NCBI GenBank assembly: GCA_019118445.1 | Contig: DWYY01000003.1 | Coordinates: 1 to 64,000 of the forward strand | Direction of reading: 5' to 3' | Origin: Candidatus Eisenbergiella merdipullorum | GTDB taxonomy: Bacteria > Bacillota > Clostridia > Lachnospirales > Lachnospiraceae | Length of the DNA: 64,000 bases | Shown here: positions 29,954 to 58,078 of the stretch, piece by piece | Numbering within the stretch: the stretch's first letter is position 1 | How the letters are laid out: each line of letters begins with the position of its first letter | Translations under genes and position numbers: made by a program | The notes under the pieces: generated by a model | Database searches by the model: none | Told to the model about the DNA's origin: nothing | What the model saw: the letters and a program-made list of their open reading frames with translations, nothing else

Positions 29954-29966
29954 TGCAACTCCTTTT

Positions 29967-29993: not shown

Positions 29994-30003
29994 CTGTCCG
30001 GGT

Positions 30004-34127: not shown

Positions 34128-34168
34128 ACGCTCCACCCTCTTTTTTGCAGTTTCTCCCTAACATTACT

Positions 34169-34463: not shown

Positions 34464-35363
34464 TTGAAGCCTTTAGACCATCTGAGCACTCTGGAGGCGG
34501 AATCCATCTATATCATGAGGGAGGTCGCTGCAGAGTGTGAAAAGCCTGTCATGCTCTATTCTATCGGGAAGGACAGTTCTGTCATGCTGCACCTTGCCAG
34601 AAAGGCTTTTTATCCGGAGGATCCTCCATTTCCTTTTCTCCACATTGATACTACCTGGAAATTTCATGAAATGATCGAATTCCGTGACGCGACCGCCAAA
34701 AAGTACGGTCTGAACATGCTGGTCTATACCAACATGGACGGCGTGCGTCAGGGCATCAATCCCTTCGACCACGGCGCTGCATATACGGACATCATGAAAA
34801 CCCAGGCGTTGAAAGCGGCACTGAAGCAGTATGGCTTTACGGCAGCCTTTGGCGGCGGCAGACGGGACGAGGAAAAATCCAGAGCGAAGGAGCGGATTTT
34901 CTCCTTCCGGAACGCCGAGCAGACCTGGGACCCCAAAAACCAGCGCCCGGAGATGTGGAAGCTGTACAACACCAGGATCCACAAGGGAGAGAGCATCCGG
35001 GTCTTCCCTCTCTCCAACTGGACGGAGGCCGACATCTGGCAATACATCAAACGGGAAAATATTGAGATCGTCTCCCTGTATTATGCCAAGGAGCGTCCCT
35101 GCATCTACCGCGACGGCAACATCATCATGGTGGATGACGACAGGCTGAAGCTGCGCCCCGGCGAAAAGATCGAATATAAAAAGATCCGTTTCCGCACCCT
35201 CGGCTGTTATCCCCTCACAGGCGGCATGGAATCGGATGCGGATACATTGGATAAGATCATAGCTGAAACGCTCGGAGCCGTATACTCGGAGCGCACCAGC
35301 CGCGTGATCGACCACGAAGCGGCCGGCAGCATGGAACGCAGAAAAAGGGAGGGGTATTTCTGA
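34464..35363 (+). CDS. cysD: sulfate adenylyltransferase subunit 2 (CysD)
   Basis: A 299-residue ATP sulfurylase small subunit that makes adenosine 5'-phosphosulfate from ATP and sulfate in the cytoplasm. The pyrophosphatase-loop motif is '[11 protein letters not shown]' (~32-42), followed by '[12 protein letters not shown]' and '[20 protein letters not shown]', which are strongly conserved in CysD. I start it at TTG 34464 ([20 protein letters not shown]), because AAAGGAG stands 6 bp upstream and none precedes the tracked ATG 34422. Its stop overlaps the cysNC ATG by one base. The sulfotransferase downstream suggests that the product feeds sulfonation. Confidence 0.95.
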
Positions 35364-37192
35364 TGAAGGACCTGTTAAAATTTCTTACCTGCGGCAGCGT
35401 GGACGACGGAAAATCCACGCTGATCGGCCACATGCTTTATGACAGCAAACAGCTCTACGCGGATCAGGAACAGGCGCTCCAGCTTGACAGCCGGGTCGGC
35501 AGCGCGGACGGCCAGATCGATTATTCCCTGCTGCTGGACGGACTCATGAGCGAGCGGGAACAGGGGATCACCATCGACGTGGCCTACCGCTATTTCAAGA
35601 CGGAGGCGCGCAGCTATATCGTGGCGGACGCCCCCGGTCATGAGGAGTATACCCGCAATATGGCCGTGGCCGCCTCCTTCGCCCAGCTTGCCGTCATCCT
35701 TATCGACGCCTCAAAGGGCGTTCAGATCCAGACCAGACGCCATGCCCGGATCTGCTATCTGATGGGTATCCGCGACATGGTCTTTGCCGTCAACAAAATG
35801 GACATGGTGGGATACGACAGACAGCGCTTCAAGGAAATTGAAAGCGCCATCCATGAGATGACAGAGCCTTTTCCCTTAAACAGCCTTGCCATCATCCCGG
35901 TTTCCGCCACAATGGGAGACAATATCACGGAGCATTCTGACCGGATGCCCTGGTACAGCGGGCCTTCTCTTCTGGACTATCTGGATCAGGTCGAGATCGC
36001 TCCTTCTACGGAGAGTACGGATTTCACCATGCCGGTGCAGAGGGTGTGCCGTCCCAATTCCTCCTTCCGGGGCTTTCAGGGCCAGATCGAGAGCGGAAGC
36101 GTCCGCGTCGGCGATGAGATCCGCAGCCTTCCCAGCGGAGAAACCGCTGTGGTAACCGACATTCTCACAGGCTTTGATGAAGTGGAGGAAGCCGTGGCCG
36201 GACAGCCCGTGACCATTCAGCTCGGCCGGGAGATCGACATTTCCCGGGGCTGTGTGCTGGTAAAAGGAAAGGGCCATCCCATTTCAGAAAGCTTCACCGC
36301 CACGCTTTTGTGGATGGACGAATCCCCCCTGATGCCAGGCGTCAATTACATTCTCAAGCTGGGGACCAAAATGACAAACGCCACCGTCATGGACATCCAG
36401 TATAAGGTGGACATCCACAGCGGACGCCATGTCCCCGCCGACCGGCTTTATAAAAACGAGATCGGCGTCTGCAATATCCTGGTATCGGAAAAGATCATCC
36501 TGGATACCTTTGAAAAAAGCCAGCCCATGGGCGGCCTGATCCTGATCGACCAGGTCACCAACCATACCTGTGCGGGAGGAACGGTGAAAGCCGTCACATC
36601 CGGCTATGGGGATCTGTTCTGGCATGATTTTGACCTCACCAGGGATATCCGCGCCAGAAACATGGGGCAGAATCCCCTTACCATCTGGTTCACCGGACTG
36701 TCCGGCTCCGGGAAATCCACGCTGGCCAACGCCCTGGAAAAGAGGCTGTACGCCATGGGCATGCATACCATGGTGCTGGATGGGGATAATATCCGTCTGG
36801 GCCTGAACCGGGACCTGGGCTTTTCCGAGGAGGACAGGATCGAGAATATCCGCAGGATCGCCCAGGTGGCAAAACTGATGAACGACGCCGGCCTGATCGT
36901 GCTGACCGCCTTTATCTCCCCGTTCCACAGGGACCGGGACAACGCCCGCAAGATCATCGGCGACTCTTTTATCGAGGTCTATGTGAACACCCCTCTGGAG
37001 GAATGTGAGCGCCGCGATATCAAACACCTCTACCAGAAAGCGCGCAAGGGAGAGATCCATGATTTCACCGGGATCAGCAGTCCATATGAGGTCCCTGAAA
37101 ATCCGGATATCACGGTTGATACCACCGGACGCGCCGTGGAAGCCTGCGTCTCCGATATTCTGGAGAAGCTTGCGCCTTACCTGAAAAAATGA
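35363..37192 (+). CDS. cysNC: bifunctional sulfate adenylyltransferase subunit 1 / APS kinase (CysNC)
   Basis: A 609-residue fusion. Residues 1-~430 form the CysN GTPase with G1 'GSVDDGKST' (11-19), 'DAPGHEEY' and 'NKMD', plus two EF-Tu-like beta barrels. Residues ~435-609 form APS kinase with P-loop 'GLSGSGKST' and 'LDGDNIRLGLNRDLGF'. With CysD it makes APS at the cost of GTP and phosphorylates it to PAPS, the universal sulfonate donor. No PAPS reductase or sulfite reductase gene is nearby, so PAPS for transfer rather than reduction is the likely purpose. The sulfotransferase begins 29 bp later. Confidence 0.95.
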   Translation: MKDLLKFLTCGSVDDGKSTLIGHMLYDSKQLYADQEQALQLDSRVGSADGQIDYSLLLDGLMSEREQGITIDVAYRYFKTEARSYIVADAPGHEEYTRNMAVAASFAQLAVILIDASKGVQIQTRRHARICYLMGIRDMVFAVNKMDMVGYDRQRFKEIESAIHEMTEPFPLNSLAIIPVSATMGDNITEHSDRMPWYSGPSLLDYLDQVEIAPSTESTDFTMPVQRVCRPNSSFRGFQGQIESGSVRVGDEIRSLPSGETAVVTDILTGFDEVEEAVAGQPVTIQLGREIDISRGCVLVKGKGHPISESFTATLLWMDESPLMPGVNYILKLGTKMTNATVMDIQYKVDIHSGRHVPADRLYKNEIGVCNILVSEKIILDTFEKSQPMGGLILIDQVTNHTCAGGTVKAVTSGYGDLFWHDFDLTRDIRARNMGQNPLTIWFTGLSGSGKSTLANALEKRLYAMGMHTMVLDGDNIRLGLNRDLGFSEEDRIENIRRIAQVAKLMNDAGLIVLTAFISPFHRDRDNARKIIGDSFIEVYVNTPLEECERRDIKHLYQKARKGEIHDFTGISSPYEVPENPDITVDTTGRAVEACVSDILEKLAPYLKK

Positions 37193-37221
37193 GCTGTTAC
37201 TATGAGAAGGAGAAATACGGG

Positions 37222-38430
37222 ATGAAAGGAAAGAAGACAAAGCTGTCATTTATCTGCATCGGATTCCAGAAATGCGGAACCACATCCCTGTACGATCTGC
37301 TCAGACAACACCCAAACATCTATCTGACAGAAGACGTGAAGGAACCGATGTTTTACCGGGTTCATCTTGTCCGCCGGATCCTCGGCTCCGGCTGGTATCG
37401 GAAAAGATATTTCGGGCATCTGGAGGAAGCCAGACAGATGCCTCCCGCCGCGCGGCGCAGAACCTCTGAAAACGTAGGGCTTCTCACCGGACGCCGGGGG
37501 AAGACGTCCTCCGCCGGTACAGATCCATCCAAAGCCTGCGCAGCCACTTCCAAAGCCTGCGCAGCCGGACCGGAAGACAGCGCTGTATCTGTTTCAGGAA
37601 CGGATCATGCTGCGCCGGCAGCTTCTGACCAGAGCCAGGCAGACGGCAGACATGCTTCCGTCCTCTATCCGGGAGAGATCAACGCGGGCCTTGGTTTTAA
37701 CGGCTGCGCCCGCTGGCTTGGCAGGGATTTTACCCACGACACAAAGCTGATCTTCATGATGCGTGACCCGGCGGACCGCTGCTATTCCGCTTATAAATAC
37801 TTTCTCGCCCTCGGCTTCCTGCCCATGTCTGTGGCGGCGGATGATAAAAAAAGAGGACATGCTGCGGCCTTCGACAGCTATGTCCGCTCTGTCCTGCTCA
37901 ATCCACACCGCCGGAAGGAGATCAGGAGGCACCGCATGAAATATCTCTGCTTTTCCCAGGGCAACTACGCCTGCTGCATCCGGGAATACCTGCGCAGTTT
38001 CCCCAGAGAAAACATGAAGTTCATCTTCTTTGAGGAGTTCATCCGAGATGAGGAAGGCGTGACGAAGGATCTTCTCCGGTTTTTGCAGATTCCCGAAGCT
38101 CCGGGGATGTCCTATCATGTGAAAAGCAACGAGACCAACTTTCGGGCGGCTTCTCCGGTCTGCGCCAAAATCCTTCTCCTGTTCCAGGGTATGTACTATC
38201 TGTTCTTTGAATTTTTAAACATGGGACGCCGCTGCCCGGGATTTTTCCGGAAATTCATGGCATTCTATGACTGGAGCATGGATAAATGCACCCGTCCGGA
38301 AACAGATGCCTCCAAAATGCTGCCATCCACCAGAAAGCTCCTGAATCGCTACTATCAGAATGAGATCAGGAAAGTGGAGGAGCTTTCCGGCCGCAGCGTG
38401 CCTGAAAGCTGGGCACGCTGCGGAAAATAA
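37222..38430 (+). CDS. PAPS-dependent sulfotransferase
   Basis: A 402-residue sulfotransferase. The 5'-phosphosulfate loop is 'GFQKCGTTSLYDLLRQHP' (14-31) and the 3'-phosphate site is 'MRDPADRCYSAYKYF' (~178-192). A C-terminal 'PESW' ends the fold. I choose ATG 37222 behind GAAGGAG over the tracked ATG 37189 that overlaps cysNC without a ribosome site. An Ala/Ser/Cys-rich insert (~100-150), encoded partly by a 21-bp direct repeat, interrupts the domain. No membrane helix or signal peptide is seen, so it acts in the cytoplasm. The acceptor is unknown; it could be a glycan, lipid or small molecule. Confidence 0.88.
   Translation: MKGKKTKLSFICIGFQKCGTTSLYDLLRQHPNIYLTEDVKEPMFYRVHLVRRILGSGWYRKRYFGHLEEARQMPPAARRRTSENVGLLTGRRGKTSSAGTDPSKACAATSKACAAGPEDSAVSVSGTDHAAPAASDQSQADGRHASVLYPGEINAGLGFNGCARWLGRDFTHDTKLIFMMRDPADRCYSAYKYFLALGFLPMSVAADDKKRGHAAAFDSYVRSVLLNPHRRKEIRRHRMKYLCFSQGNYACCIREYLRSFPRENMKFIFFEEFIRDEEGVTKDLLRFLQIPEAPGMSYHVKSNETNFRAASPVCAKILLLFQGMYYLFFEFLNMGRRCPGFFRKFMAFYDWSMDKCTRPETDASKMLPSTRKLLNRYYQNEIRKVEELSGRSVPESWARCGK
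37528..37569 (+). repeat. 21-bp tandem repeat in the sulfotransferase insert
   Basis: Two copies of TCCAAAGCCTGCGCAGCC with a 21-bp period encode SKACAAT and SKACAAG. They lie in the low-complexity insert. Confidence 0.8.
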
Positions 38431-38486: not shown

Positions 38487-39746
38487 TCAGATTAAGAACC
38501 CTTCGTTTCTCAGAATATCCTGCACTTGTCTTACATCGACGTTGCGCACATTCGTATGATCTTTTACTGCGACGGCGACTGCTGTCCCCGCTGCCTGACC
38601 CAGTTCTGCGCAGTATGGCATGATCCTGTAAGATGCCTGCGCTTCATGTGTGGAAGAGATGCAGCGCCCAGCCACCAGCATGTTATTCATATGTTTCGGT
38701 ATCAGGCACCGGTAGGGGATCTCATACCACTGCCCGGCCCCAAAATAGTAATGTGTGGTCCCCGAACCTTCCGGATTATGGATATCTATATCATAGTTTG
38801 CTGTCGCAATGGCGTCAGGAAAGCGGGCAAGCGATTTCAGATCCGTTTCTGTCAGCGTATATTCCCCGTCAATTTTCCGGCTTTCCCGTATGCCTATCTG
38901 AATCGCGGTGGAAAGCACTCTTGCATTTTCAAACCCTTCGATATTATCTTTGAGGAAGCGATATAACTCAAAGACCTGCTCTCTCGCTTCAATCTCAGCT
39001 TTTGTAATGTCAAAAGGATCGGTAGGATCTCTCTTTACTATTCTTGTACTGTTAAAATGCAAAACGCCATCATTATAATTTTCAAAAATCAAAACATCCT
39101 CCCGGGGATTTTTGATCAGTCCTTTTTCTTTCCATTCCTGGTACAGCGGATTGATCTTCGACCGGTTTTTCTGAAATTTCTCCTTATCAACACCGCTCAT
39201 CCTGAAGCAAAGCGTCATTGGCTGACACAATCCGTCCGCTTCTCTGCCCACCTGGCTGGAGCATCCTGCCAGCATCGAAAGCTCCGCATCCCCTGTCGCA
39301 TCAATAAAATGATCCGCCCGAAACGACAGCGGCTTTGATTTTCCCAAGACCTGGATGGACATAAGATTTCCATCGGATACAGAAGCCTCCACAACGGTCG
39401 CGTCAAAAAGCAGGTTCACCCCATACTTTAATGCCATTCTGTTCAGGACAAGCTTTAAAACCTCTTCATCAAAATGGACAAGCTCATCCTTCGTATTCAT
39501 GATCTTGTTCATTTCTGAAACAATTTCCAAAAACAGACCGCCGCTGAGAAATTTTTTTTCTTTTTCTCCCGGCATATTTGTCCAATAGCACATAAACGGC
39601 ATGATCAAAGAACCCACCGCCGCGCCGCCAAGAGCGTTATACTTCTCTATCAGCAGCACCTCCACGCCCTGCTTTGCAGCGGAAATAGCCGCCGCTGTAC
39701 CGGCAAATCCGCCGCCTACTACGATCAGTTCATACTTGTCTTTCAT
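38487..39746 (-). CDS. FAD-dependent oxidoreductase (FAD_oxidored, PF12831)
   Basis: A 419-residue flavoprotein. The dinucleotide-binding motif is 'VVGGGFAGTAAAISAAKQGVEVLLIEK' (9-35), followed by 'NALGGAAVGSLIMPF' and 'HFIDATGDAELSMLAG'. It ends with 'THEAQASYRIMPYCAELGQAAG', the C-terminal FAD contact. This group is abundant in gut Clostridia and Bacteroidota beside carbohydrate genes, but its reaction is mostly unknown. ATG 39746 follows GTAGGAGGGC. It stands alone and converges on the sulfotransferase with a 56-bp gap. It is a relative of the second flavin domain of the 971-residue protein at 45.3 kb. Confidence 0.88.
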   Translation of the reverse strand: MKDKYELIVVGGGFAGTAAAISAAKQGVEVLLIEKYNALGGAAVGSLIMPFMCYWTNMPGEKEKKFLSGGLFLEIVSEMNKIMNTKDELVHFDEEVLKLVLNRMALKYGVNLLFDATVVEASVSDGNLMSIQVLGKSKPLSFRADHFIDATGDAELSMLAGCSSQVGREADGLCQPMTLCFRMSGVDKEKFQKNRSKINPLYQEWKEKGLIKNPREDVLIFENYNDGVLHFNSTRIVKRDPTDPFDITKAEIEAREQVFELYRFLKDNIEGFENARVLSTAIQIGIRESRKIDGEYTLTETDLKSLARFPDAIATANYDIDIHNPEGSGTTHYYFGAGQWYEIPYRCLIPKHMNNMLVAGRCISSTHEAQASYRIMPYCAELGQAAGTAVAVAVKDHTNVRNVDVRQVQDILRNEGFLI

Positions 39747-39964: not shown

Positions 39965-41212
39965 TTACACCAAAGACTTATTCAGATAAGCCTCCTGCTC
40001 AGGCGTGAGGGTATCGATCTTCTTACCGAGGAAGCTGAGCTTTCTTTCCGCCACTTCCCTGTCGATCTCCGCCGGGACATCGATCAGCTTCTCGGTCAGT
40101 TCCTTCCCATGCTCCACCAGGTATTTCGCGGACAGCGCCTGGATCGCAAAACTCATGTCCATGATCTCCGCCGGATGTCCGTCCCCGGCCGCCAGGTTCA
40201 CAAGCCGTCCCTCTGCCAGGACGCAAATCCACTGTCCGGTGGGCAGCTTATAGCCTTGGATGTTCTTTCTCATCTCTTTGGTCTCAACCGCCATCTCGCG
40301 CAGTCCGGCCATATCGATCTCGCAGTCGAAGTGACCCGCATTGCAGAGGATCGCGCCCTCCTTCATCTCCACGAAATCTTCCGCATCAATGACCTTGTCG
40401 CATCCCGTCACGGTGATGAAGAAATCGCCAATCTTTGCGGCTTCCTTCATGGGCATCACCTCGAAGCCGTCCATTACCGCCTCGATGGCCTTAACAGGGT
40501 CGATCTCCGTCACGATGACCTTCGCTCCCAAGCCCTTCGCTCTCATGGAAACTCCCTTGCCGCACCATCCGTAACCAGCCACGACCACATTCTTGCCGGC
40601 CACGATCAGGTTGGTGGTGCGCATAATGCCGTCCCATACGGACTGGCCCGTGCCATATCTGTTGTCGAAGAAGTGTTTGCACTGTGCGTTGTTGACGCGG
40701 ATCATGGGGAATTCCAGATCGCCCGCGCGGTTCATGGCCTCCAGCCGGATGATGCCGGTGGTGGTCTCCTCACAGCCGCCCAGGATATTCGGGATCAGAT
40801 CGCGCATCTCGGTATGAACCATGTGCACCAGATCGCCTCCGTCATCGATGATGATGTTCGGACCAGCGGACAGCGCCGCGCGGATGTGGGAATTGTACTC
40901 CTCCTCTGTCGCCCCGTACCAGGCATGCACTTCAAGCCCTGCCTTTACCAGAGCCGCTGCTACGTCATCCTGTGTGGAGAGCGGATTGGAACCGGTAACA
41001 TACATTTCCGCTCCGCCTGCCGCCAGCACCTTGCACAGGTACGCGGTCTTTGCCTCCAGATGCACGGAAAGAGTGATCTTCTTTCCCGCGAAGGGCTTCG
41101 TCTGGCTGAATTCCCCTTCCAGCATACGAAGCAGGTCGCAGTTTCTCTTCACCCATTCAATTTTCTGTTCGCCGGATTCGGCCAGGTTGATGTCTCTGAT
41201 TTCGCTGCTCAT
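39965..41212 (-). CDS. ahcY: adenosylhomocysteinase (S-adenosylhomocysteine hydrolase)
   Basis: A 415-residue NAD-dependent enzyme that cleaves S-adenosylhomocysteine to homocysteine and adenosine, ending the methylation cycle. It has 'LSVHLEAKTAYLCKVLAAGGAEMYVTGSNP' near the N-terminus, 'IDDGGDLVHMVH', the substrate segment 'NNAQCKHFFDNRYGTGQS', and NAD-binding 'VVAGYGWCGKGVSM'. It lacks the ~40-residue insert seen in some bacterial forms. ATG 41212 follows AAAAGAGGTAG. Many Clostridia use Pfs/LuxS instead, so this route is notable, since it yields no AI-2. Its leader holds two hairpins. Confidence 0.95.
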   Translation of the reverse strand: MSSEIRDINLAESGEQKIEWVKRNCDLLRMLEGEFSQTKPFAGKKITLSVHLEAKTAYLCKVLAAGGAEMYVTGSNPLSTQDDVAAALVKAGLEVHAWYGATEEEYNSHIRAALSAGPNIIIDDGGDLVHMVHTEMRDLIPNILGGCEETTTGIIRLEAMNRAGDLEFPMIRVNNAQCKHFFDNRYGTGQSVWDGIMRTTNLIVAGKNVVVAGYGWCGKGVSMRAKGLGAKVIVTEIDPVKAIEAVMDGFEVMPMKEAAKIGDFFITVTGCDKVIDAEDFVEMKEGAILCNAGHFDCEIDMAGLREMAVETKEMRKNIQGYKLPTGQWICVLAEGRLVNLAAGDGHPAEIMDMSFAIQALSAKYLVEHGKELTEKLIDVPAEIDREVAERKLSFLGKKIDTLTPEQEAYLNKSLV

Positions 41213-44302: not shown

Positions 44303-44377
44303 GGCATGCGCTTTCTGTTTTCCGGTGAGACGGCATGCGCTTTCTATTCTCTGGTGAAGCTGCATAAGCTTTCTATA
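44303..44377 (-). repeat. 29-bp imperfect tandem repeat, 2.5 copies
   Basis: Units start at 44303, 44332 and 44361, each with GCATGCGCTTTCT or its variant GCATAAGCTTTCT. The last partial unit contains the stop codon of the XRE-methyltransferase gene. Function unknown; slippage or 3'-end regulatory debris is possible. Confidence 0.7.
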
Positions 44378-45203
44378 ACGGTTTTCTGGCAAAAACGGTA
44401 TCCATGCAGTGTTTATGGGGAATACCGCTGCTGCTGCAGTCAAAGATCTTCTCCCGGCAGTCCTCGATCACCCAGTCTTTATAATAAGTAAAGAGTTCCC
44501 CGGAAATCCAGTTTTTCCAGTTGTTTCCGTCCGCTTCCGCATCCGGCGGGGTGGGAAGGAATGGCTTTTCCACGAAAACATTGACGGCATGCAGGCCGCC
44601 CGGCGCGGTATGGGACAGATAATCCTCCATCAGCTCTTTACGCAGAGGAGGCAGAATGTGATGGAACACGCCGGAGCTGTAGATGATGTCATATTCCTCA
44701 TTCAGGCGGAAAGTGCGCAGATCCGCCTGGAAGAATCGGATCTCAACCTGATGGATGTCAGCCAGCCGCTTCGCCTTCTCAATGCCGGAGTCCGTGGCAT
44801 CAAATGCCGTTACCTGGTAACCGCATTTTGCCAGGAAAACAGCGTCTTTTCCTTCTCCGCAGCCGATCTCCAAAAGACGCAGGGGCCTTGTCGGATAGAT
44901 CCGCTTCAGAAGCTCCAGACACATATCATTGGGCCGGGTACCCCAATAGTAGCCTTCCGTCCGATACCGTTCCTCGTAGGGCGTGATCTGCCTTTTCCCC
45001 GGGATATAACCCATCAGGGTATCGATATCCGTTTCCAGCAGCCCGGCGAGGCGGGGGAGCAGGGTGATATCCGGCAGCGACTGGGCGTTTTCCCATTTGG
45101 AAACCGCCTGCGCCGAAAGATTCAGCTTTCCCGCAAGCTCCTCCTGGGTATATCCCTTTAATCTTCGGAAGCGCGCGATATTTTCTGCCAGTATGGTTTT
45201 CAT
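44373..45203 (-). CDS. XRE-type HTH fused to SAM-dependent methyltransferase
   Basis: A 276-residue two-domain protein. Residues ~4-60 form an XRE helix-turn-helix, 'IARFRRLKGYTQEELAGKLNLSAQAVSKWENAQ'. Residues ~75-276 form a class I methyltransferase with motif I 'LLEIGCGEGKDAVFLAKCGY', 'AFDATDSGIEKAKRL' and post-I 'YDIIYSSGVFHHI', close to TehB/UbiE-like enzymes. The fusion suggests a regulator whose binding or output is tied to methylation, or an enzyme that represses its own gene. ATG 45203 follows CTGGAGGTAAG. It has no operon partner. Confidence 0.88.
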   Translation of the reverse strand: MKTILAENIARFRRLKGYTQEELAGKLNLSAQAVSKWENAQSLPDITLLPRLAGLLETDIDTLMGYIPGKRQITPYEERYRTEGYYWGTRPNDMCLELLKRIYPTRPLRLLEIGCGEGKDAVFLAKCGYQVTAFDATDSGIEKAKRLADIHQVEIRFFQADLRTFRLNEEYDIIYSSGVFHHILPPLRKELMEDYLSHTAPGGLHAVNVFVEKPFLPTPPDAEADGNNWKNWISGELFTYYKDWVIEDCREKIFDCSSSGIPHKHCMDTVFARKPL

Positions 45204-45294: not shown

Positions 45295-48210
45295 TCAACC
45301 TGTGGTTGGGTTCAAGATCTGATATGCCCTCCTGCGCAAGATATAATGTACATCTGTAAGCCCTCTCTCCAGGATCTCCTTTCCCAGTTGGCTTCCACAT
45401 TGATACAGGGCCTCTCCTAAAGAAAGTTCCATATAGGCACTTTGATAATACCTGCCTGTGCAGCGATCCTCCTGCCCGCTTTGAAGCGCTTCATTCTGTC
45501 TTTCATTTCCCAGGAATCCCAAAAGCCCCTCCCTTTCTGCCAATCCTTCCAGAGCTGTCAGATATTTTGGGGACGGCTTTTTTCGGATGTAGAGCAGCAA
45601 TGTCCTCAGCCTGTCATAATGAGGGATTTTATGTAAATCCCAGCGTCTTGAAACATATTCCGTATCAGAACGCATGGTACTTCCGCCGGAAGTAAACTTT
45701 TCTAGCAAAGTCCGTACACTTTCGGTTATGCCCTCTTCTTCCAGAAGAGCAAACACCGTAAGCAGCTGATTGATCCTCCAGTAATCGCTGTTCTTCCCCA
45801 CAATGCCTCCCAGATTATTTCCGGGCTTTATCATATTTTTATCATTATAGTCGTCAATGTTCTCCTTTTCCGCCAGATCCTTCAGAACGGTTTTTAACCG
45901 GGGGACCGCTTCCCTTTCTCCAAACCATGCGAGAGCCAGCCCAAGGGGAAGGTTGTCCGGATGCTTCAAATATTCCTCCATTACAGCGGATACTGCTTCT
46001 TTCGCAGGAAGGCACAGGACTTGACGCATGCTGTCCGCGTCTTCCGCTTTCAATCCTTCCAGCAGGTCTTTCCTGTCGTAATGGCTTTCCCGCTTTTTAA
46101 AGTGTTCCGCGTCCAAAATGTGCATATGCCGTAATATTCCCTGCAAGGTATCCATGCGGATATCCCGGATATCACAATGCTCTGACACCGCCATCGCGGC
46201 GGCAATTCCGATAGCATAGCCCCTGTTCTGCAGATCTCCGGCCATACGCAGGAAAGCGGCGGCATCCTGCGTACCGCTGATACTTTTGGAAGCAGCCAGA
46301 AGTCCGCTGATCCCTTTGGGAATACATGCCCGGTATGGAACCTCCACAGCATAGGCATCTCCATGAAAAGGCATCATCCCCATGTAGCTTAACAGGGAGC
46401 TCATCTCTCCATGTGGATCATTGTCCGTATAGGCCATTGCAATGGCATCGGGAAACCTTGTCTTCAGAAATATATCTGACATGCTGATAACATATTCCCC
46501 TTCAAAGGTCCTTCCTTCCCTGGGGGTGAGAAGGGGAGAAAAATCAATCCCGCCCCCGAAATGGTGTGCCATCCTGACCGCCCGCAGCACCTCTTCATAT
46601 TTACTTTGAAAAACAGCATCCAGATTATATCCGCCTCCATGGTAATGCATCAGGCCGCAGTCCTGGACATTCCCGCTGTCCTTCGCTCCCAGGGAGCATG
46701 GCACGCCGGCGTATTCCATTAAGTCCCCGTCTCCTGTTGCATCCACGATCACGTCGCCGCAAAGCCTTCCCCATTTTCCTTCATGCACGACAACAATCCC
46801 CCGAACGGCATCCGCCTCTTTTATCACGTCACAGACGGTCATATTATTATATCTCTCAATTCCCTCCTGCTCCATGGCATGTCCATACCACAGCATTCTC
46901 CCCGCTATGGAATTTTTCAACCCATAAGCTTCCATTTCCTTCGTGAACTGATTGGCAAACCCATCCTTATGGCAAAAATAATATCCCGTAATTGCCCCAT
47001 AAGTCTGTGTGCCGCCAAAACCGCAATGATATTCCGCGATCAGTGTATGAGCCCCGTTTCTGGCTGCCCCCATCGCCGCGGCCACACCGGCGGTCCCGCC
47101 TCCAGCTATTATGACCTCAGCTTCTGCCATCTCCGCAAGCTGACCGCTGTTTTTCATCGTGAGCTTCTGCAGCGGCAGCTTCACTTCACAATCATCCCAA
47201 TCCTCTTTTTCAAAATCCGTAAGGTTAAGGACAAGCTCTCCATTCCTGAAAAATTTTTCTGAAAAAACATCTGTGAAAGATGTTTCCGTAACACCATCCG
47301 ACAGCCATGCCTCAATTTTCTCCAGCCCGGAAACAAGCTCTTCCCCTGCATGAATGGAATACAGGTTCTTTACCGTTTTGCATGCTTCCATCCTGCAAGC
47401 CTCCCCTGCGTATGGTTCATAACAGAATAATTCTGCTGTCAGATCCGCTCTGGGGAATACCCTTTGCAGAAGCTTAACCGCTATGAGCATGGCCCTCTGA
47501 CCTTTCAGGAACATACCCCCAGTCTTTTCCGTTTTCCCCACGGGGAAGACCACCTCCAGAAAGGAAGCGTTCCCTTGGGGATATGTCCGGTATAATATGC
47601 CTTCCGCTTCCTTTTTCTCCTGCATCGTTAATGCCGGCCAGGCTGTTTCCAGAGCTTCCACAAGCTCTGTCAGGCTTCCACCCTGCTGCGGTATCTCCTC
47701 ACCCGCTTTAGTCTGATATCTTAATGCGGCAGACGCCATGCTTCTGTGCTCCCACAGCTTTCCATCCGCCATTTCCCTTAAAACTGATTTCTGTCCGGCA
47801 TCCATGATACATTTTCCACGGATCAGAAAATATCCCCATTTACTGCCAAGCAGCACGCCGCAGGCGGTTTCTTGTGTTTCCGTCCGTTCCAGAAATAATG
47901 CGCATGGCTCTAAAAAGAAGAAAACCTGCACATTATTTTCCTCTACCCAATCCAACAGCTTCCTCTTAATATCCCCGATCTCTGCCGGATGTCCTCCTTC
48001 ATCCCGGCATAGGTCCAGCATTTCCCTCACAACAGGATGGCTGCTGTCTTTATTCCCGTCATATTCATGGAAAGTTGCCGTAATGTCGCTTCCCAGAAAA
48101 CCTCTCCGCTCTATCAGCGCAACGCTGCAGCCCCTCCGGCTCATTTCCACGGCCGCCAGGCACCCTGCAAGGCTCCCTTCATAGATAATGTAGTCAAATG
48201 TCTTTTCCAT
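45295..48210 (-). CDS. large two-lobed FAD-dependent oxidoreductase with helical-repeat C-terminus
   Basis: A 971-residue protein. The first lobe (~1-345) opens with 'DYIIYEGSLAGCLAAVEMSRRGCSVALIERR', a dinucleotide fold in which the Gly-rich loop is degenerate. The second lobe (~355-680) has an intact 'VIIAGGGTAGVAAAMGAARNGAH' and a closing 'GTQDAAAFLRMAGDLQNRGYAIG'. A C-terminal ~270 residues are helical and HEAT-like, with 'LEKFTSGGSTMRSDTEYVSRRWD'. The second lobe matches PF12831 and is related to the protein at 38.5 kb. It begins 6 bp after the AraC gene and is the last gene of the second sugar operon. The substrate is unknown. Confidence 0.85.
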   Translation of the reverse strand: MEKTFDYIIYEGSLAGCLAAVEMSRRGCSVALIERRGFLGSDITATFHEYDGNKDSSHPVVREMLDLCRDEGGHPAEIGDIKRKLLDWVEENNVQVFFFLEPCALFLERTETQETACGVLLGSKWGYFLIRGKCIMDAGQKSVLREMADGKLWEHRSMASAALRYQTKAGEEIPQQGGSLTELVEALETAWPALTMQEKKEAEGILYRTYPQGNASFLEVVFPVGKTEKTGGMFLKGQRAMLIAVKLLQRVFPRADLTAELFCYEPYAGEACRMEACKTVKNLYSIHAGEELVSGLEKIEAWLSDGVTETSFTDVFSEKFFRNGELVLNLTDFEKEDWDDCEVKLPLQKLTMKNSGQLAEMAEAEVIIAGGGTAGVAAAMGAARNGAHTLIAEYHCGFGGTQTYGAITGYYFCHKDGFANQFTKEMEAYGLKNSIAGRMLWYGHAMEQEGIERYNNMTVCDVIKEADAVRGIVVVHEGKWGRLCGDVIVDATGDGDLMEYAGVPCSLGAKDSGNVQDCGLMHYHGGGYNLDAVFQSKYEEVLRAVRMAHHFGGGIDFSPLLTPREGRTFEGEYVISMSDIFLKTRFPDAIAMAYTDNDPHGEMSSLLSYMGMMPFHGDAYAVEVPYRACIPKGISGLLAASKSISGTQDAAAFLRMAGDLQNRGYAIGIAAAMAVSEHCDIRDIRMDTLQGILRHMHILDAEHFKKRESHYDRKDLLEGLKAEDADSMRQVLCLPAKEAVSAVMEEYLKHPDNLPLGLALAWFGEREAVPRLKTVLKDLAEKENIDDYNDKNMIKPGNNLGGIVGKNSDYWRINQLLTVFALLEEEGITESVRTLLEKFTSGGSTMRSDTEYVSRRWDLHKIPHYDRLRTLLLYIRKKPSPKYLTALEGLAEREGLLGFLGNERQNEALQSGQEDRCTGRYYQSAYMELSLGEALYQCGSQLGKEILERGLTDVHYILRRRAYQILNPTTG

Positions 48211-50538: not shown

Positions 50539-51420
50539 TCATCCTTTAACCGCACCGATCATAGCGCCTTTCACAAAATATTTCTGCACAAAAGGATAAA
50601 TACACAGAATCGGAACCGTTGCCACCATAATTGTCGCATACTTGATGCTTTCCGCGATGGCAAGCATATCCCCTCCCTCTCCTGCGGTCATGGAATCTAT
50701 ACTGTTATTGATCAAAATTTCCCGCAGGATCAACTGCAGAGGATATTTTTCCCGATCCCTCAGATAGATAGCCGCATTAAACCAGGAATTCCAATAGCTT
50801 ACCGCATAATAAAGCAATACCACAGCAAGGGAGGCTTTGGCAACCGGAACCATGATCCGGAACAAAATCTTAAACTCGCTCGCTCCATCTATCCTTGCCG
50901 ATTCCTCCAGCGATTCCGGCACAGCTTCCAGGCCGGTACGAAGTATGACCATATTATAGGTTACCACCAGCACCGGCAGGATCAACACCAGCCTGTTATT
51001 TCCCAGTTTCAGCCAGTTGTTGTTTAAGATGTAGGACGGTATCATACCTCCGCTGAAATACATGGGAATTACCATCATGATCATAAAAAATTTCTTTCCC
51101 GGGAAAGGCTTTCTGGACATCACATAAGCCGCCAGAAGCGTAAAAAGCGTGCTGCTCAGGGTCCCCGCAGCCACAAGAAAGACCGTATTTCCGTAGCCGG
51201 ATAGGATATTGGGGTTTTTAAACACCATCCGGTACGCGCCCGTATTAAAATTCAAAGGCACGAGCAGGGCTCCCGTATGTGCGGCCAGATAATTGGAATC
51301 ACTCAAAGAGGCCATCAGCACATACCAGAGAGGATATGCCATGATCACAATAATAAGCAACATGAACAGCGTATTTACAATATCGAATATTCGATCCCCC
51401 AAACTGCGCTTCCTCTTCAT
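50539..51420 (-). CDS. carbohydrate ABC transporter permease, LplC/YtcP type
   Basis: A 293-residue six-helix permease. I start it at ATG 51420 (MKRKRSLGDRIFDI) behind GGAGGG; the tracked ORF extends 7 codons upstream. The EAA loop is 'LEESARIDGASEFKILFRIMVPVAKA' and the C-terminus is 'KYFVKGAMIGAVKG'. It is paralogous to the permease at 28.1 kb. It pairs with the LplB-type subunit 14 bp upstream. The imported sugar is unknown. Confidence 0.92.
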   Translation of the reverse strand: MKRKRSLGDRIFDIVNTLFMLLIIVIMAYPLWYVLMASLSDSNYLAAHTGALLVPLNFNTGAYRMVFKNPNILSGYGNTVFLVAAGTLSSTLFTLLAAYVMSRKPFPGKKFFMIMMVIPMYFSGGMIPSYILNNNWLKLGNNRLVLILPVLVVTYNMVILRTGLEAVPESLEESARIDGASEFKILFRIMVPVAKASLAVVLLYYAVSYWNSWFNAAIYLRDREKYPLQLILREILINNSIDSMTAGEGGDMLAIAESIKYATIMVATVPILCIYPFVQKYFVKGAMIGAVKG

Positions 51421-51434
51421 TTCCGCATTCCCTC

Positions 51435-52355
51435 CTACCATAATGAGCTGCCCTTCAGCTTTTTGGATATCTGATTTGTGATGATCACAAGGGCAATGTT
51501 GATCACGGACTGCACCAGACCGATCGCTGTGGTATAGCTGAACTGCGGATAACTTCCTGACAGTCCCATACGATAGATATAGCTGGAAAAAACATCCGCA
51601 GATTCATAGGTTGTGGTATTATACAGCAAAATTACTTTTTCATATCCCACGCTCATCACATTTCCCACTCTCATGATCAGCATAACGGAAATGGTCGGCA
51701 TAATGCTCGGCAGCGTGATGTATCGCATCTTTGCGAATCTGCCTGCGCCATCCAGATCCGCCGCTTCATACTGCTCCTGATCAATTCCCGCAAGCGCGGA
51801 CAGATAGATGATGGAATCCCATCCCATGGTCTGCCAGATCTGGCTGATCACATGGATCGGCTTATAATATTCCGGCACCATCAGCAGATTCTGATTTTCC
51901 ACAATTCCCAGATGAGAAAGGATCAAGGTGATCAGCCCGTCCGCACTTACAAATTCCTTGATCATTCCACAGATCACGATCAGGGAAATAAAATGAGGCA
52001 GATAGGTTACAGTCTGCACAACTCTTTTAAATTTTGCGTTGCGGATTTCATTCAGCAGAAGCGCAAGAATAATGGTCGCCGGCATGCCGAACAGGATGCT
52101 GCTGCAGCTGATGGTCAATGTGTTTTTCAGCAGTCTTCCAAAATAGGGGTCCTGAAAAAACCGGATAAAATGCTTCAGTCCTACCCAATCGCTGTGAAAA
52201 AAACCGGTTGCGGGTTTATAATCCATAAAGGCTATGATGCTTCCATACATCGCGCCATAATGAAAGATCAGAAAATAGATCAATACCGGAAGAAACATCC
52301 AGTAAAGCTGCCGGTTTCTTTTGATTTCTCTTTTTAATTTCGCTACTTTCCCCAT
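51435..52355 (-). CDS. carbohydrate ABC transporter permease, LplB/YteP type
   Basis: A 306-residue permease. The start is ATG 52355 (MGKVAKLKREIKRN) with GGGAGC upstream rather than the tracked ATG 52400. 'LIYFLIFHYGAMYGSIIAFMDYKPATGF' is the family's first helix-loop, and the EAA loop is 'YEAADLDGAGRFAKMRYITLPSIMPT'. It forms a heterodimer with the adjacent LplC-type permease. No ATPase gene accompanies the set. Confidence 0.92.
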   Translation of the reverse strand: MGKVAKLKREIKRNRQLYWMFLPVLIYFLIFHYGAMYGSIIAFMDYKPATGFFHSDWVGLKHFIRFFQDPYFGRLLKNTLTISCSSILFGMPATIILALLLNEIRNAKFKRVVQTVTYLPHFISLIVICGMIKEFVSADGLITLILSHLGIVENQNLLMVPEYYKPIHVISQIWQTMGWDSIIYLSALAGIDQEQYEAADLDGAGRFAKMRYITLPSIMPTISVMLIMRVGNVMSVGYEKVILLYNTTTYESADVFSSYIYRMGLSGSYPQFSYTTAIGLVQSVINIALVIITNQISKKLKGSSLW

Positions 52356-52423
52356 AAACAGCTCCCATCTGTTTTTCTCGTAAGCTTTGAGGGTGCGCAT
52401 GGCACCCCCAAAAGCATCGCCTG

Positions 52424-54121
52424 CTATCTTGCCATATACCTGTCGTAGCCGGCCTGTTTGATCTCGATCACCCTTTCGATCCCCATTGTTTTCAGGGTAT
52501 CCACAAAGCTGTCATATTCGCTCATATCACGAGTTCCCATGACAAACTTGGTAAGCTCCTCCTCCACATAGGTATTGATCGAAGAAGTAAGCGTAGCCAG
52601 CTCTTCTGATTCTTCCGTCGTCGCCGATATGGTAGGCATGAGAACGTTCAGCGCGTTATCCGCATATTCGTTCCAGGTTGTCATAGCATCTCTCTGTTCC
52701 TGAAGCTGATAATATCCTTCATAATATCTGATATCAATGACCCCCACCGAAGGCTGAGAAGCCCTTGTATATCTTCCAAGCGCCTGCGCCACAGAAAGTC
52801 CATCCGGATTATTCAGGATCAGATCCGTATACTGCGGTTCTCCGTCCACCATCTCATAGCTTAAACCTTCTATGCCAAAATTCTTCAGCATATGTCCTTC
52901 GTCACTGTACCAGTAGTCCAGATAAGCCATCGCGGCTTCAATATCCTCGCAGGCTGTGGTAATTGCAGCCATATTCTGCGTTCTCACATCCCAGCTTCTG
53001 TTGATGAATTCCGGTTCATCTCCCGCATTTACAACCGGATATTGTACGCCGATCAGTTTAAAATCCGGATTGGTCCCCTCATTCGCCTGCGCATTATTGG
53101 TATATGTACCAATGCCGCTTCCGATAAACCCAAACAGCGCACCGGATCTGTCATTTAACAGATTACTTCCCACTGCCGTACCATCATTTCCGAAAATTTC
53201 CGGATCGATCAGTCCTGCCGCATACCACCTCGCCATGGTATCGATGTAGTCCCTGTAACCGTCCTCCAGAATCCCATAATGCACAGCGCCGTCCCTCACA
53301 TAGAATCCGGAATAAGTGCCAAATGCTCCGGCGAACCAGGCATTTGCCCCTATGATCTGATCCATTGTGCCGGTCAAAGGAGCGTCCTCACCCAGTTCAT
53401 CTTTAAAGGCTGTCAGCATTCCTTCCCAGTCTGCCACGGTTTCAGGAGCATCCAGCCCCACGGCGTTCAGCATATCCTCCCGCACGATATAGCCGCTGCT
53501 CACATTCACGGATTCGTCGCCGATGCATGCAAACGCATAGATTTGGCCCTCGTCTGTCGTTACCTGCTTTGCGATATCCGGATTTTCATCCAGGATCTTC
53601 TTATAATTGGGCGCATAGCCCTGCTCCAGGTAGGGCGCCAGATCGATGATGATCCCATCCTCAATTGCCTGCGTGGGGCTTCCAGGATAAGAGCTCCAGG
53701 AATACTCCATGATGTCTTCCAGCTCCATGCTGGCAATTCTCAGATTGAAGGTTTCATTTTCTGTCCCTGTCGCCGGATGAACATAGTTCACGTTCACATT
53801 CACCGCGTCATTCGCTACCTGCATGATTTCCATATCATTTAAGGAGGTAAGAGTAGAAGATGCCCCGAGCAGGCCTCCGTAATAGGAAAGATCTACGGGC
53901 TCCCCTTCTACCACTTTGTATGAAACTTCCGCGGGTTCCTCCCCTTCTTCCTTTGTTTCCTCCGCCGAAGGCTCCTGCACCGTGCTTTCCGGAGTTTCAG
54001 AAGATGCCGTTTCCGTTTCCCCGCTGTCTGCTGAATTGCCGCAGCCCGTCAGGCCTCCCATCACCATACATCCTGCCAGAATGATCGCTGCCATACGCTT
54101 TCTCAATACCCTTTTCCTCAT
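52424..54121 (-). CDS. extracellular solute-binding lipoprotein of the second sugar ABC transporter
   Basis: A 565-residue lipoprotein starting at ATG 54121 (MRKRVLRKRMAAII) behind ACAGGAGG; the tracked ORF is 53 codons too long. The signal peptide ends in lipobox LTGC, with an acidic Thr/Glu/Ser linker after it. The mature part has 'YVHPATGTENETFNLRIASM', 'YSWSSYPGSPTQAIEDGIII' and 'NFGIEGLSYEMVDGEPQYTD', all aligning with the 30.0-kb paralogue. It delivers an oligosaccharide to the two permeases encoded next. It is the first gene of the five-gene operon ending with the FAD protein. Confidence 0.93.
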   Translation of the reverse strand: MRKRVLRKRMAAIILAGCMVMGGLTGCGNSADSGETETASSETPESTVQEPSAEETKEEGEEPAEVSYKVVEGEPVDLSYYGGLLGASSTLTSLNDMEIMQVANDAVNVNVNYVHPATGTENETFNLRIASMELEDIMEYSWSSYPGSPTQAIEDGIIIDLAPYLEQGYAPNYKKILDENPDIAKQVTTDEGQIYAFACIGDESVNVSSGYIVREDMLNAVGLDAPETVADWEGMLTAFKDELGEDAPLTGTMDQIIGANAWFAGAFGTYSGFYVRDGAVHYGILEDGYRDYIDTMARWYAAGLIDPEIFGNDGTAVGSNLLNDRSGALFGFIGSGIGTYTNNAQANEGTNPDFKLIGVQYPVVNAGDEPEFINRSWDVRTQNMAAITTACEDIEAAMAYLDYWYSDEGHMLKNFGIEGLSYEMVDGEPQYTDLILNNPDGLSVAQALGRYTRASQPSVGVIDIRYYEGYYQLQEQRDAMTTWNEYADNALNVLMPTISATTEESEELATLTSSINTYVEEELTKFVMGTRDMSEYDSFVDTLKTMGIERVIEIKQAGYDRYMAR

Positions 54122-54264
54122 TACATTCCTCCTGTTTTTCATTGATCTGTGGCCACGTTTTTCTTTGCAGGTCCAGGATAATGCATCTTGCACATTTTTT
54201 AAAGTAACATTTTCTTGGAAAGGTATCATTTTCTTCAAAATCACACGGATGATCACATAAAAAT

Positions 54265-54293
54265 AGTATATATTTACCAACTCCAGAAGGCAA
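54265..54293 (-). promoter_or_regulatory. promoter of the second sugar transport operon
   Basis: Minus strand: TTGCCT (54288-54293), 17-bp spacer, TATACT (54265-54270). It leaves a ~135-nt leader before the ATG. Confidence 0.55.
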
Positions 54294-54412: not shown

Positions 54413-55861
54413 TTAAAACTCTCTTTCCGTCTCTTCTCCGCCCGGCTCCGCAGTGAACACATGAAACTCTTTTGTCTTAAAGTCCGCGTCCAGCTTCGCC
54501 GTATATCCATCCTTCTCCCTTACGATCACAAGCTTCCCGTCCTCGCATTCCTCCATCCGGAAGCTTCCGCCGAAGGCAGGGAAAGAATTTCTGAATTCCA
54601 TCAGATGGAGCAGCTTCTTTACCACAGGCCGCTCCACCTCTCCCGCGATTTCCTCTTTCGTATAATAATGGCGGTTGATATTGCGTCCTACTTTGGTTTC
54701 CTCCAGGAGCTTCAGATCGTTCTTTCCGGCAAGAAGCCCAACATAGTACACCTGCGGGATGCCGGGCGCGAAGAACTGCACAGCCCTGGCGAGAAGATAA
54801 GCCGCATCGTCATCCCCAAGGGCGGAATAATAGGTGCAGTTCACCTGATAGATGTCCAGGTTGTTGTAGGCTGAGGTATTATAAATCTTCTTCACATTGG
54901 CGCCGAACTTAAAGATATCCTCCTTCGTCCGGTCGATCTCCTCATCCGGAAGCAGGTCCTTCACATCCACCACCCCGATGCCGTCATGGGTGTCCAGCGT
55001 GGTAAACTGTTTTCTGGGGCAGATTTCCAGCCAGTGCTTCAGATAACGGGTCTGTCCGTAGTACAGAGCGTTGATCAGGAGCATGGGCAGGGCAAAATCA
55101 TAGACATAATATCCTTTTTCCTCAATCTTCTTCTGCATGGTGTAGTGTTCATGGATCTCCGGCAGGATCGTCACATCCCAGGGCCTCACGATTTCTGAGC
55201 ACTCATCCAGCAGCTCCCATACGTCCGGCTCAATGAAGAAGCAGCTGGTCCCCGCCTTCTTTGTGGCATAGGCGAAGGCGTCCAGGCGGATCATGGCCGC
55301 GCCGTGGCCGCACATGCCGGTGAGGTTGTCACGGATGAACTTCTTCGCCGTCTCCGACTTGCAGTTGATGTCGATCTGCTCCTCATCAAAGGTACACCAG
55401 ACCTTCTCCGTAGTTCCGTCTGCAAAATGGGCTTCCACATAAGGCGCTCTTGGCTTTCTTTTATAGATTGCGTCCACCTGCTCTTTGGTGGGTTCACCTC
55501 CCTCCCAGAAATCTTTGTAGCGGATAAACAGATCTTTCCACTCCGACGCGTCTTTCTTTTCCAGAAAATCCTGATAGTATCTGCTGTGGGCGGAAATGTG
55601 GTTGATCATATAATCAAACATCAGATAGTATTTCTCCGCCAGGCGCTCCACATCCGCCCAGTCACCAAAGGCCGGATCCACCTTCGTGTAGTCCATAGGC
55701 GCAAAGCCCCGGTCCCCGGAGGAAGGGAAAAAGGGAAGGATATGGACGCCGCCCACCGCGTCCTTAAAATACGTGGAAAGGATCTCTTCCAGATCCTTCA
55801 GGTTATGCCCCATAGAATCGGCATAAGTGATCAGCATGATCTTATTTTCCAGTTTTTTCAT
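54413..55861 (-). CDS. gtfA: sucrose phosphorylase (GH13_18)
   Basis: A 482-residue cytoplasmic enzyme that splits sucrose with phosphate to glucose 1-phosphate and fructose. I start it at ATG 55861 ([18 protein letters not shown]), matching the usual ~480-490 length, with AAGGAG upstream. The nucleophile is Asp194 in 'MIRLDAFAY' and the acid/base is Glu235 in 'ILPEIHEH'. '[13 protein letters not shown]' and '[16 protein letters not shown]' are subfamily signatures. A sucrose 6'-phosphate or glucosylglycerol phosphorylase is possible, as GH13_18 includes these. A LacI-type remnant next to it suggests that it has lost its local repressor. Confidence 0.92.
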
Positions 55862-55969
55862 CGCTTTTTTGCTCCTTTTCTTCTTTTTCTCTAAGATTGC
55901 TATCTTGTTGTACCGCCATCCACAAATTTTACAGGAAGGATAATGCTCTGTCCGACAGGCTTTTTTCAA

Positions 55970-56443: not shown

Positions 56444-58078
56444 TTACCGTTCATTCCGTATGGTAATACTCCGCTCAAACTCCGTATAATCCGTAAAATA
56501 CATGGTGAAGCAGTTGGGATCGTTTCCTTCGCTTCCGAACATGCCGGCCAGGTAGGAATGGGTTCCAAAGCCCGGTCCGATCAGCAGGGAATCTTCCTCA
56601 TTGCTCAGCCGCGTCATTCCGTCCTTCACCAGGATCTGCGCCCCCCTCAGGTTCTGCATGCAGAAATGTTCTCCATCCGCATGATCCGCTCCAAGTATGG
56701 CAGCTTCAATCCGAAAAGGTGCTTTTTTTACCCCATGCAGATGGAAATCCACCCGAATGCCATCCTCCACGTCATGAACCTCCACCTCAATGGAAAGATC
56801 CGGCCCCAGCTTCTTCTTTCTTTTACTGTGATCCATCTTCCACCAGTCGCTGGTTTCCTGCGGCTTTCCAAACGGCAGATAGTACCATCCCCTCATCACC
56901 TGGTTCAGCCGGAAGCCATCCTTAGTTTCCTCCATCGTTTCCGCCTGGAAAGCCCTGTGCTCACAGATACAGCCGCCAATCTTCAGTGCCACATCGATGG
57001 ACGGATTGCTGAAATACAGGAAATTGCTCTTTCCCTTCATCAGCGTATAGGTAACGTCCCCTTTCCGGATCCTGGCAATCCCGGACTCGCGGTACAGCTT
57101 CCGAAAATCCTTCTGCTGATAGACCAGACAGCTCTCAAAATCGATCAGATCCGGATGATTCATGTACTCCATCAGGAAATCCGGCGCTTCCAGGTGATTT
57201 TCCTGTGTCAGTTCAAAAATCCGGTTTGCAAAGGCAACGAACTCCGGAATTTCCCTTTTCTTTCCCAGAAACAGGTATTCCCAGTAATACCCGGACGGGT
57301 ATGAACGCTTCCCGTTGTCCTGTCTGGTGGAATTGGCAGTGAAAATCGTCCCGTCCGGCTCCATATAGGTGAGCATCATATACAGATTTCTCACCGCATA
57401 GTCAAAATATTCTTCCTTCCCAGTGTATGTACCGAGATCGATCATGGCGTTGTTATTGACGCAGTTGTATATTCCCGCCGACCGCTCTGCATATTCCCCG
57501 TCCTCATTGCAGTCAATGCCCTCTGCCAGATAAACCTCTGCTGCCTGCGCATATTCTGGCTTCTGAAAAAAGCCGGCACACACCATCAGCGTCGAAGCTA
57601 TCACCCAGCGATGGTTTGGCGTATGGAAGCCGCCGCACAAAAGTCCGTCCGCCGCCTTCCGGGTAAGCCCGTACATCTTCTCATAAATCCGGTCCAGGCT
57701 CTCATCCCTCTGTCTGCCCCTAAGATAGTACAGACAGGGCAGCAGCTCCTTCATGCTGAAAGCCGTATCCGGCGCAGAATGGAAATTGCATTTGATCAGA
57801 TCAAACAGACCGTCCTCATGCTGGTTTCTCTCCGCAAAAGAAAGTCCCGCAAGAATCCGCTCCGCCAGAAGCCCGCTCCGAAAATATGCGCTCTTTTCAT
57901 TGCAATATGCCGCAGTCATGGATTTCACCCTATAAAGCGTATGCCTGGCATCAAACAGGCCGTCTGCATCCGGAAATCCCCCGCAGTATTCGCTCTGCCC
58001 GTCCATATTCTGAATGCGCAGAGATTTTTTCACTCTATGGTCATTGTCCTTTATCATTTTTTCATAATGCGTTCTCAT
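56444..58078 (-). CDS. heparinase II/III-like (alpha/alpha)-toroid protein, putative polysaccharide lyase
   Basis: A 544-residue protein without signal peptide. The N-terminal ~310 residues are helical with repeated aromatic pairs and 'GGFHTPNHRWVIASTLMVCAGFF', 'NCVNNNAMIDLGTYTG' and 'YMEPDGTIFT', resembling the toroid of heparinase II/III-type lyases. The last ~230 residues are beta-rich ('LSIEVEVHDVEDGIRVDFHLHG'), as in their sandwich domain. This supports an intracellular lyase or hydrolase for uronate or sulfated oligosaccharides, but the catalytic set is not certain. ATG 58078 follows AAGGAACAGG. It lies between remnants and the sucrose phosphorylase. Confidence 0.55.
   Translation of the reverse strand: MRTHYEKMIKDNDHRVKKSLRIQNMDGQSEYCGGFPDADGLFDARHTLYRVKSMTAAYCNEKSAYFRSGLLAERILAGLSFAERNQHEDGLFDLIKCNFHSAPDTAFSMKELLPCLYYLRGRQRDESLDRIYEKMYGLTRKAADGLLCGGFHTPNHRWVIASTLMVCAGFFQKPEYAQAAEVYLAEGIDCNEDGEYAERSAGIYNCVNNNAMIDLGTYTGKEEYFDYAVRNLYMMLTYMEPDGTIFTANSTRQDNGKRSYPSGYYWEYLFLGKKREIPEFVAFANRIFELTQENHLEAPDFLMEYMNHPDLIDFESCLVYQQKDFRKLYRESGIARIRKGDVTYTLMKGKSNFLYFSNPSIDVALKIGGCICEHRAFQAETMEETKDGFRLNQVMRGWYYLPFGKPQETSDWWKMDHSKRKKKLGPDLSIEVEVHDVEDGIRVDFHLHGVKKAPFRIEAAILGADHADGEHFCMQNLRGAQILVKDGMTRLSNEEDSLLIGPGFGTHSYLAGMFGSEGNDPNCFTMYFTDYTEFERSITIRNER

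Follow-up and report, generated by a model that had tools for sequence, protein, structure and literature searches.

FAD enzymes such as the glycoside 3-oxidases of the GMC type are known to oxidise glycosides in bacterial catabolism (PMC10646112), while the levoglucosan pathway proceeds through an NAD-dependent oxidation-elimination of the sugar (PMC7676230). In the xanthan region of Paenarthrobacter an FAD-dependent oxidoreductase is encoded beside ABC permeases, a solute-binding protein and GH38, with no pathway role given (PMC12772297). The PF12831 (FAD_oxidored) family, to which the protein analyzed here belongs, appears to have hardly any characterized member, and in the literature searched a single paper mentions it by name. 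The literature searched does not describe the architecture of this protein or the gene cassette of its relatives, and combinations with GH38, DUF1537 and HEAT gave nothing on the group; the tandem-lobed family is widespread and apparently undescribed.

The gene lies in a 64,000-nucleotide stretch of contig DWYY01000003.1 of Candidatus Eisenbergiella merdipullorum (GCA_019118445.1), referred to below as the window. A preliminary description of this DNA had proposed a 971-residue FAD protein with two tandem flavin folds, the first with a broken glycine motif, and a HEAT-like tail. The open reading frame is real, and the features of the gene and its operon are collected in Table 1. The PF12831 match covers residues ~358-704 (E 7e-60, 203.8 bits against a gathering cut-off of 27), and the start of the protein gave only a weak nucleotide-binding match in Pfam. 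An AlphaFold2 model built from 40 aligned sequences (mean pLDDT 80.6, pTM 0.88) has one flavoprotein-like fold in residues 1-305 (N-lobe) and another in ~351-710 (C-lobe), followed by an all-helical segment at 713-970. Structure prediction had been set beforehand as the test of the two-fold proposal; it returned neither a single oxidoreductase fold nor a missing flavin pocket, and together with a profile-profile match between the lobes (hhalign E 9e-20) it bears out the tandem arrangement. The tail is modeled as helical throughout; no HEAT model of Pfam matched the window protein, and HEAT_2 and HEAT_PBS were each found in 3/40 relatives. At E values up to 1 the window protein also lacked matches to the GMC N and C domains and to GFO_IDH_MocA, nor did it show a separate NAD(P)-binding domain. 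Foldseek with the whole model matched FAD enzymes, the best being flavocytochrome c3 fumarate reductases; among the best 50 matches no solved structure covered the chain (TM by query length ≤0.19). Sequence searches of solved structures recovered only the dinucleotide-binding segment of other flavoproteins and left the catalytic half unmatched. A frameshift or fusion artefact of a metagenome-assembled genome is ruled out by the same two-lobe length in complete genomes (e.g. L059) and in the single-contig G271, and a chance motif by the profile comparison and by ~38 sequences of identical architecture.

Table 1. Features of the two-lobed flavoprotein gene and its operon (window positions; residue numbers refer to the 971-residue protein).
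Feature	Position	Strand	Basis or remark
Whole gene, 971-aa two-lobed FAD_oxidored protein	45295..48210	-	ATG start, clean frame, PF12831 match
N-lobe, residues 1-305, degenerate flavoprotein-like fold	47296..48210	-	AlphaFold2, Foldseek, hhalign to C-lobe
N-lobe Gly motif E11-G12-S13-L14-A15-G16, broken GxGxxG	48163..48180	-	alignment of 38 sequences; E11 codon GAA
Low-confidence linker, residues 306-350	47161..47295	-	AlphaFold2 pLDDT ~30
C-lobe, residues 351-710, PF12831 FAD_oxidored	46081..47160	-	Pfam and AlphaFold2
C-lobe GxGxxG, G370/G372/G375	47086..47103	-	invariant 38/38
C-lobe GGTxTxG loop, 399-405	46996..47016	-	G399, G400 invariant 38/38
C-lobe DATGDGD, 490-496	46723..46743	-	D490, G493, G495, D496 invariant
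C-lobe RExR, 564-567, candidate active-site residues	46510..46521	-	R564, E565 invariant; R567 37/38
C-lobe D598-P-H-G601	46408..46419	-	D598 invariant; H600 in window's group, K in most others
C-lobe R655-M656	46243..46248	-	invariant 38/38
HEAT-like helical tail, residues 711-971	45298..46080	-	AlphaFold2 helices 713-970; HEAT in few relatives
AraC-family regulator, 769 aa	48217..50526	-	HTH_18
ABC permease, MalG-like	50539..51441	-	PF00528
ABC permease, MalF/UgpA-like	51435..52400	-	PF00528; overlaps adjoining permease gene
Solute-binding protein related to AlgQ1/AlgQ2 and 5gub/5xs8	52424..54280	-	
GH13_18 sucrose-phosphorylase-like enzyme	54413..55969	-	TIGR03852 837 bits (cut-off 334); PDB 7qqj 665 bits

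An alignment of 38 two-lobed sequences served to measure conservation and identity. Its invariant residues fall in the C-lobe, whose two halves have median pairwise identities of 38% and 36%; the GxGxxG motif, GG loop and DATGDGD motif of this lobe are all intact in the window protein. Because these FAD motifs are invariant, as are R564-E565, D598 and R655-M656, we take the C-lobe to be the catalytic lobe of a PF12831 flavoenzyme, which would both hold the FAD and perform the chemistry.

The profile of the N-lobe aligns to that of the C-lobe over 141 columns, at the E value given above, which identifies the N-lobe as a copy of the C-lobe's dinucleotide half; an HMM of the C-lobe made from the relatives also matches most N-lobes. 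Modeled alone, it gave a pLDDT of 72.7 and a pTM of 0.73, and Foldseek placed it nearest to geranylgeranyl reductases, aromatic hydroxylases and halogenases (TM ~0.4-0.58). The loop reads G-x-S/T-x-x-G/A in most members, and six sequences have a full GxGxxG. Serine in place of the second glycine is common in the family (Ser/Thr at position 13 in 27/38), while glycine at position 11 is kept in 35/38; besides the window protein only two sequences have lost this first glycine, and Glu at this position is peculiar to the window protein. D137 (33/38) and E34 (23/38), at positions where contacts to the dinucleotide are common in the flavin fold, are both present in the window protein. Median pairwise identity is 26% in the N-Rossmann part and 14.5% in the remainder of the lobe, and in the Lachnospiraceae relatives the lobe is eroded to ~210-276 aa. 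The glycine motif is therefore broken, at E11 and S13, and the fold degenerate, as the preliminary description had said; its suggestion of a non-catalytic first lobe is probably right as well, N-lobe conservation having been lost while that of the C-lobe stays. We regard the N-lobe as a degraded duplicate, probably structural. On our reading, its ancestor bound a dinucleotide and the window N-lobe would no longer do so in the usual way, whereas in most relatives nucleotide binding may persist, given the retention of G11, D137 and E34.

An alignment of the first relatives was scanned against 84,980 genomes, since the window protein used alone in order and phylum sampling had given few matches at E 1e-25. 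The scan added ~35 further proteins of ~850-1200 aa, in almost all of which the parts come in the same order, and the two-lobed architecture is now represented by ~38 proteins in many phyla. The added proteins come from Paenibacillus, Cohnella, Bacillus, Lachnospiraceae, Chloroflexota, Omnitrophota, Victivallales, Planctomycetes, Verrucomicrobia, Spirochaetes and others. These relatives rule out an architecture peculiar to the window genome, and, contrary to the preliminary description, the architecture is not unusual within the family. PF12831 matches 40/40 relatives as well as the window protein. When the C-lobe tree is rooted on single-lobe PF12831 proteins, the tandem proteins form one group (100/100). 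Four proteins inside this group (L075, L079, L091 and L127) consist of C-lobe and tail without an N-lobe, and a permuted one (L046, 10934-13669, immediately preceded by genes for sugar ABC permeases and two GH38 enzymes) has the FAD_oxidored lobe, a HEAT-like tail and then a second flavin lobe; the extra lobe is thus a movable addition, and the state without it, seen near the base of the group, may be ancestral. The window protein groups with L043, L047-L050 and L057, with weak support (85/52). No ortholog of the gene was found among 12 further genomes of the genus, and a profile of the window's group found a strong match in only 3 of ~396 other genomes of the same taxonomic family. The window's genome carries a second two-lobed gene (L042), of the GH13_18/GH38 type, and L129, from another genome of the genus, and L072 (Candidatus Eisenbergiella) have identical C-lobes. 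Twin-arginine-like leaders occur in L047, L056 and L083, consistent with folding around the cofactor ahead of export. These leader sequences suggest that some members are exported with bound cofactor and independent of NAD(P)H, which would leave quinone-type acceptors or a redox-neutral reaction.

The gene was also said to be the last of a sugar-uptake operon, and this is borne out. Its ATG lies 6 bases past the TGA of the regulator gene, so that the two are probably co-transcribed; the two permease genes overlap, and 91 bp separate the FAD gene from the start of its downstream neighbor. The solute-binding protein is related to AlgQ1/AlgQ2 and 5gub/5xs8, which are known to bind acidic oligosaccharides. 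The same association with an AraC-type regulator, two permeases and a solute-binding protein is seen at L043, L050 and L057. The window GH13_18 shares ~50-57% identity with FAD-linked GH13_18 proteins; we discounted it as specific evidence, as it also matches known sucrose phosphorylases very strongly and may be an ordinary sucrose phosphorylase. Rfam gave no match on the operon and the plasmid search none, and promoter and terminator scans, whose sites were no more frequent than in shuffled sequence, were left unused. Several other genes of the window deserve mention. Just downstream of the FAD gene, an HTH domain is fused to a TehB-like methyltransferase (44373-45203, -). A further ABC set of the kind seen in the FAD operon, with two permeases and a DUF3502-type solute-binding protein, occupies 28112-31668 (-), with another AraC-type regulator upstream (31827-34136). 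For a 544-aa protein at 56444-58078 (-), Pfam, NCBIfam and PDB gave nothing beyond noise except a weak match to a PL8 N-domain; it is possibly an alpha/alpha-toroid lyase or hydrolase. Genes for a CysD-like protein with a PAPS-reductase domain, a CysNC-like fusion of GTPase and APS kinase, and a sulfotransferase stand in a row at 34422-38430 (+), giving this gut Lachnospiraceae a cassette for sulfate activation and sulfation.

To characterize the surroundings of the relatives, two-lobed loci were compared with single-lobe loci from the same scan with equal mean flanks. Genes for sugar metabolism were concentrated at the former: ROK kinases in 16/41 against 1/42, Fba aldolase in 13/41 against 0/42, DUF1537 kinase in 12/41 against 0/42, GH36-like enzymes in 14/41 against 1/42, GH38 in 17/41 against 3/42 and GH13_18 in 9/41 against 1/42; the p-values of these comparisons are too small, because the neighbor profiles were built from the neighbors of two-lobed genes and related genomes were counted separately. 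Gene order conserved across distant groups is the stronger point. In Bacillales it runs racemase-like, Fba, GH38, class II aldolase, DUF1537, SIS, ROK, GH36-like, FAD, FGGY, and in Clostridia GH13_18, FAD, GH38, GH38, racemase-like, FGGY, Fba, DUF1537; relatives are also found among MalFG-type ABC permease genes. A conserved sugar cassette of Paenibacillus and Bacillus (L054, L058, L061-L063, L066 and L071) comprises GH38, OtnC-like, OtnK-like, GmhA-like, ROK, GH36-like, FAD, FGGY, Fba and racemase-like genes. In NCBIfam the L054 members come nearest to mannosylglycerate hydrolase (GH38, below cut-off), 3-oxo-tetronate kinase (DUF1537, 285 bits, below the cut-off of 350) and 3-oxo-tetronate 4-phosphate decarboxylase (class II aldolase, 127 bits, below the cut-off of 250). 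Four clusters also encode a metallo-beta-lactamase-domain protein of ~610 aa (L051, 7179-9005; L042, 6780-8609; L054; L065). Around the window gene the GH38, ROK, FGGY, Fba and DUF1537 cassette is absent, with only the ABC genes, the regulator and GH13_18 present; the window's group stands outside the GH38/OtnK clusters, so its substrate may differ from theirs.

Taken together, these observations make it on balance probable that the protein is a cytosolic PF12831 flavoenzyme of sugar or glycoside catabolism, with FAD and chemistry in the C-lobe, a structural N-lobe and a tail for docking. Redox chemistry on a sugar or glycoside is its likely function, as judged from gene neighborhoods; the earlier proposal, possible oxidation of an imported sugar or a sugar-linked aglycone, is unsupported as stated, the neighborhoods alone pointing there. 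In the mechanism we envisage, the adjoining ABC transporter would import an oligosaccharide or glycoside in whose catabolism the protein acts, using FAD to oxidize or reduce a sugar or a compound derived from one. The N-lobe, with its almost unconserved second half and, in the window protein, without the first glycine of its pyrophosphate loop, would be a packed structural or substrate-shaping lobe that does not bind FAD in the usual way, and the helical tail probably provides a docking or oligomer surface. Electrons would be exchanged with a separate partner, since the protein shows no NAD(P)-binding domain of its own.

One alternative is an internal electron relay, in which the C-lobe binds FAD and the N-lobe a second FAD or NAD(P)H. 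Its attraction lies in the retention of G11, D137 and E34 at the frequencies given above, in the six full GxGxxG motifs and in the flavoprotein fold that the N-lobe adopts in the model; yet the window protein has lost two of the three glycines, to E11 and S13, the second half of the lobe is barely conserved, the lobe is eroded in Lachnospiraceae and other relatives do without it, and we consider this relay improbable. A non-enzymatic role, in which the protein would act as a flavin sensor or as a scaffold to control the transporter or phosphorylase, is less probable still, and indeed very hard to credit: the helical tail and pseudo-lobe do resemble interaction modules and an AraC-type regulator adjoins the gene, but the invariant polar R564-E565, D598 and R655 extend beyond the FAD motifs and argue for catalysis.

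Two further readings concern the reaction, and we think each of them unlikely. The first borrows from NAD-dependent glycosidases, which provide an analogy for redox-neutral cleavage: the FAD would transiently oxidize the sugar, for example at C3, the aglycone would be eliminated and the flavin would return the hydride. The recurrent placement among glycosidase and sugar genes agrees with this, as does the lack of a recognized electron partner nearby, and for relatives that carry a twin-arginine-like leader NAD(P) would be a difficult partner, should they be exported; against it, the idea comes from an analogy of general knowledge, and the same clusters already contain classic glycosidases of several families. 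Widened to the whole group, it would make the tandem family a phylum-spanning, flavin-based counterpart of the NAD-dependent oxidation-elimination glycosidases, which would cleave or remodel glycosidic bonds through a reversible oxidation by flavin, with the worn lobe and tail holding large oligosaccharides or partner enzymes, an extension that we likewise hold to be doubtful. The second is a tetronate-type route in which a polyol or sugar acid would be oxidized and passed on to an OtnK/OtnC-like kinase and decarboxylase. It would suit the Paenibacillus relative, which adjoins DUF1537 and class II aldolase genes nearest to 3-oxo-tetronate enzymes, and the enrichment of DUF1537 (12/41 against 0/42 loci); both scores nevertheless fall under their family cut-offs, and OtnK/OtnC-like genes are absent around the window copy. 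The reading as a cytosolic sugar or glycoside flavoenzyme with a single catalytic lobe remains the one we prefer. The tandem group is a clear subfamily of PF12831: its candidate catalytic residues are invariant, and two sugar-catabolic gene orders recur strongly, in cultured Paenibacillus/Bacillus and in gut Lachnospiraceae, which makes the sugar pathway directly testable in culturable strains; it is also an example of a duplicated flavin lobe decaying stepwise.

Comparison with known systems places the group as follows. Single-lobe PF12831 members, such as the one encoded in the window at 38487-39746 (-) next to an S-adenosylhomocysteine hydrolase gene (39965-41212), have the C-lobe fold and FAD motifs in common with the tandem proteins, but are only ~420-490 aa long, lack the extra lobe and tail, form a separate outgroup (100/100) and are matched by the tandem C-lobe HMM in two pieces and with lower score. 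Geranylgeranyl reductases, aromatic hydroxylases and flavin halogenases resemble the N-lobe in fold (TM by query ~0.4-0.58) at ~13% identity, and have no tail or second lobe. The Paenarthrobacter oxidoreductase has a similar gene setting (PMC12772297) and may be a member of the group. The GMC-type glycoside 3-oxidases (PMC10646112) belong to another flavoprotein family, whose Pfam domains had no match in the window protein. Pathways of the levoglucosan type possibly follow a common logic, in which a redox step precedes bond cleavage; their known examples are NAD enzymes (PMC7676230), whereas the tandem protein, judged by its motifs, would be FAD-based.
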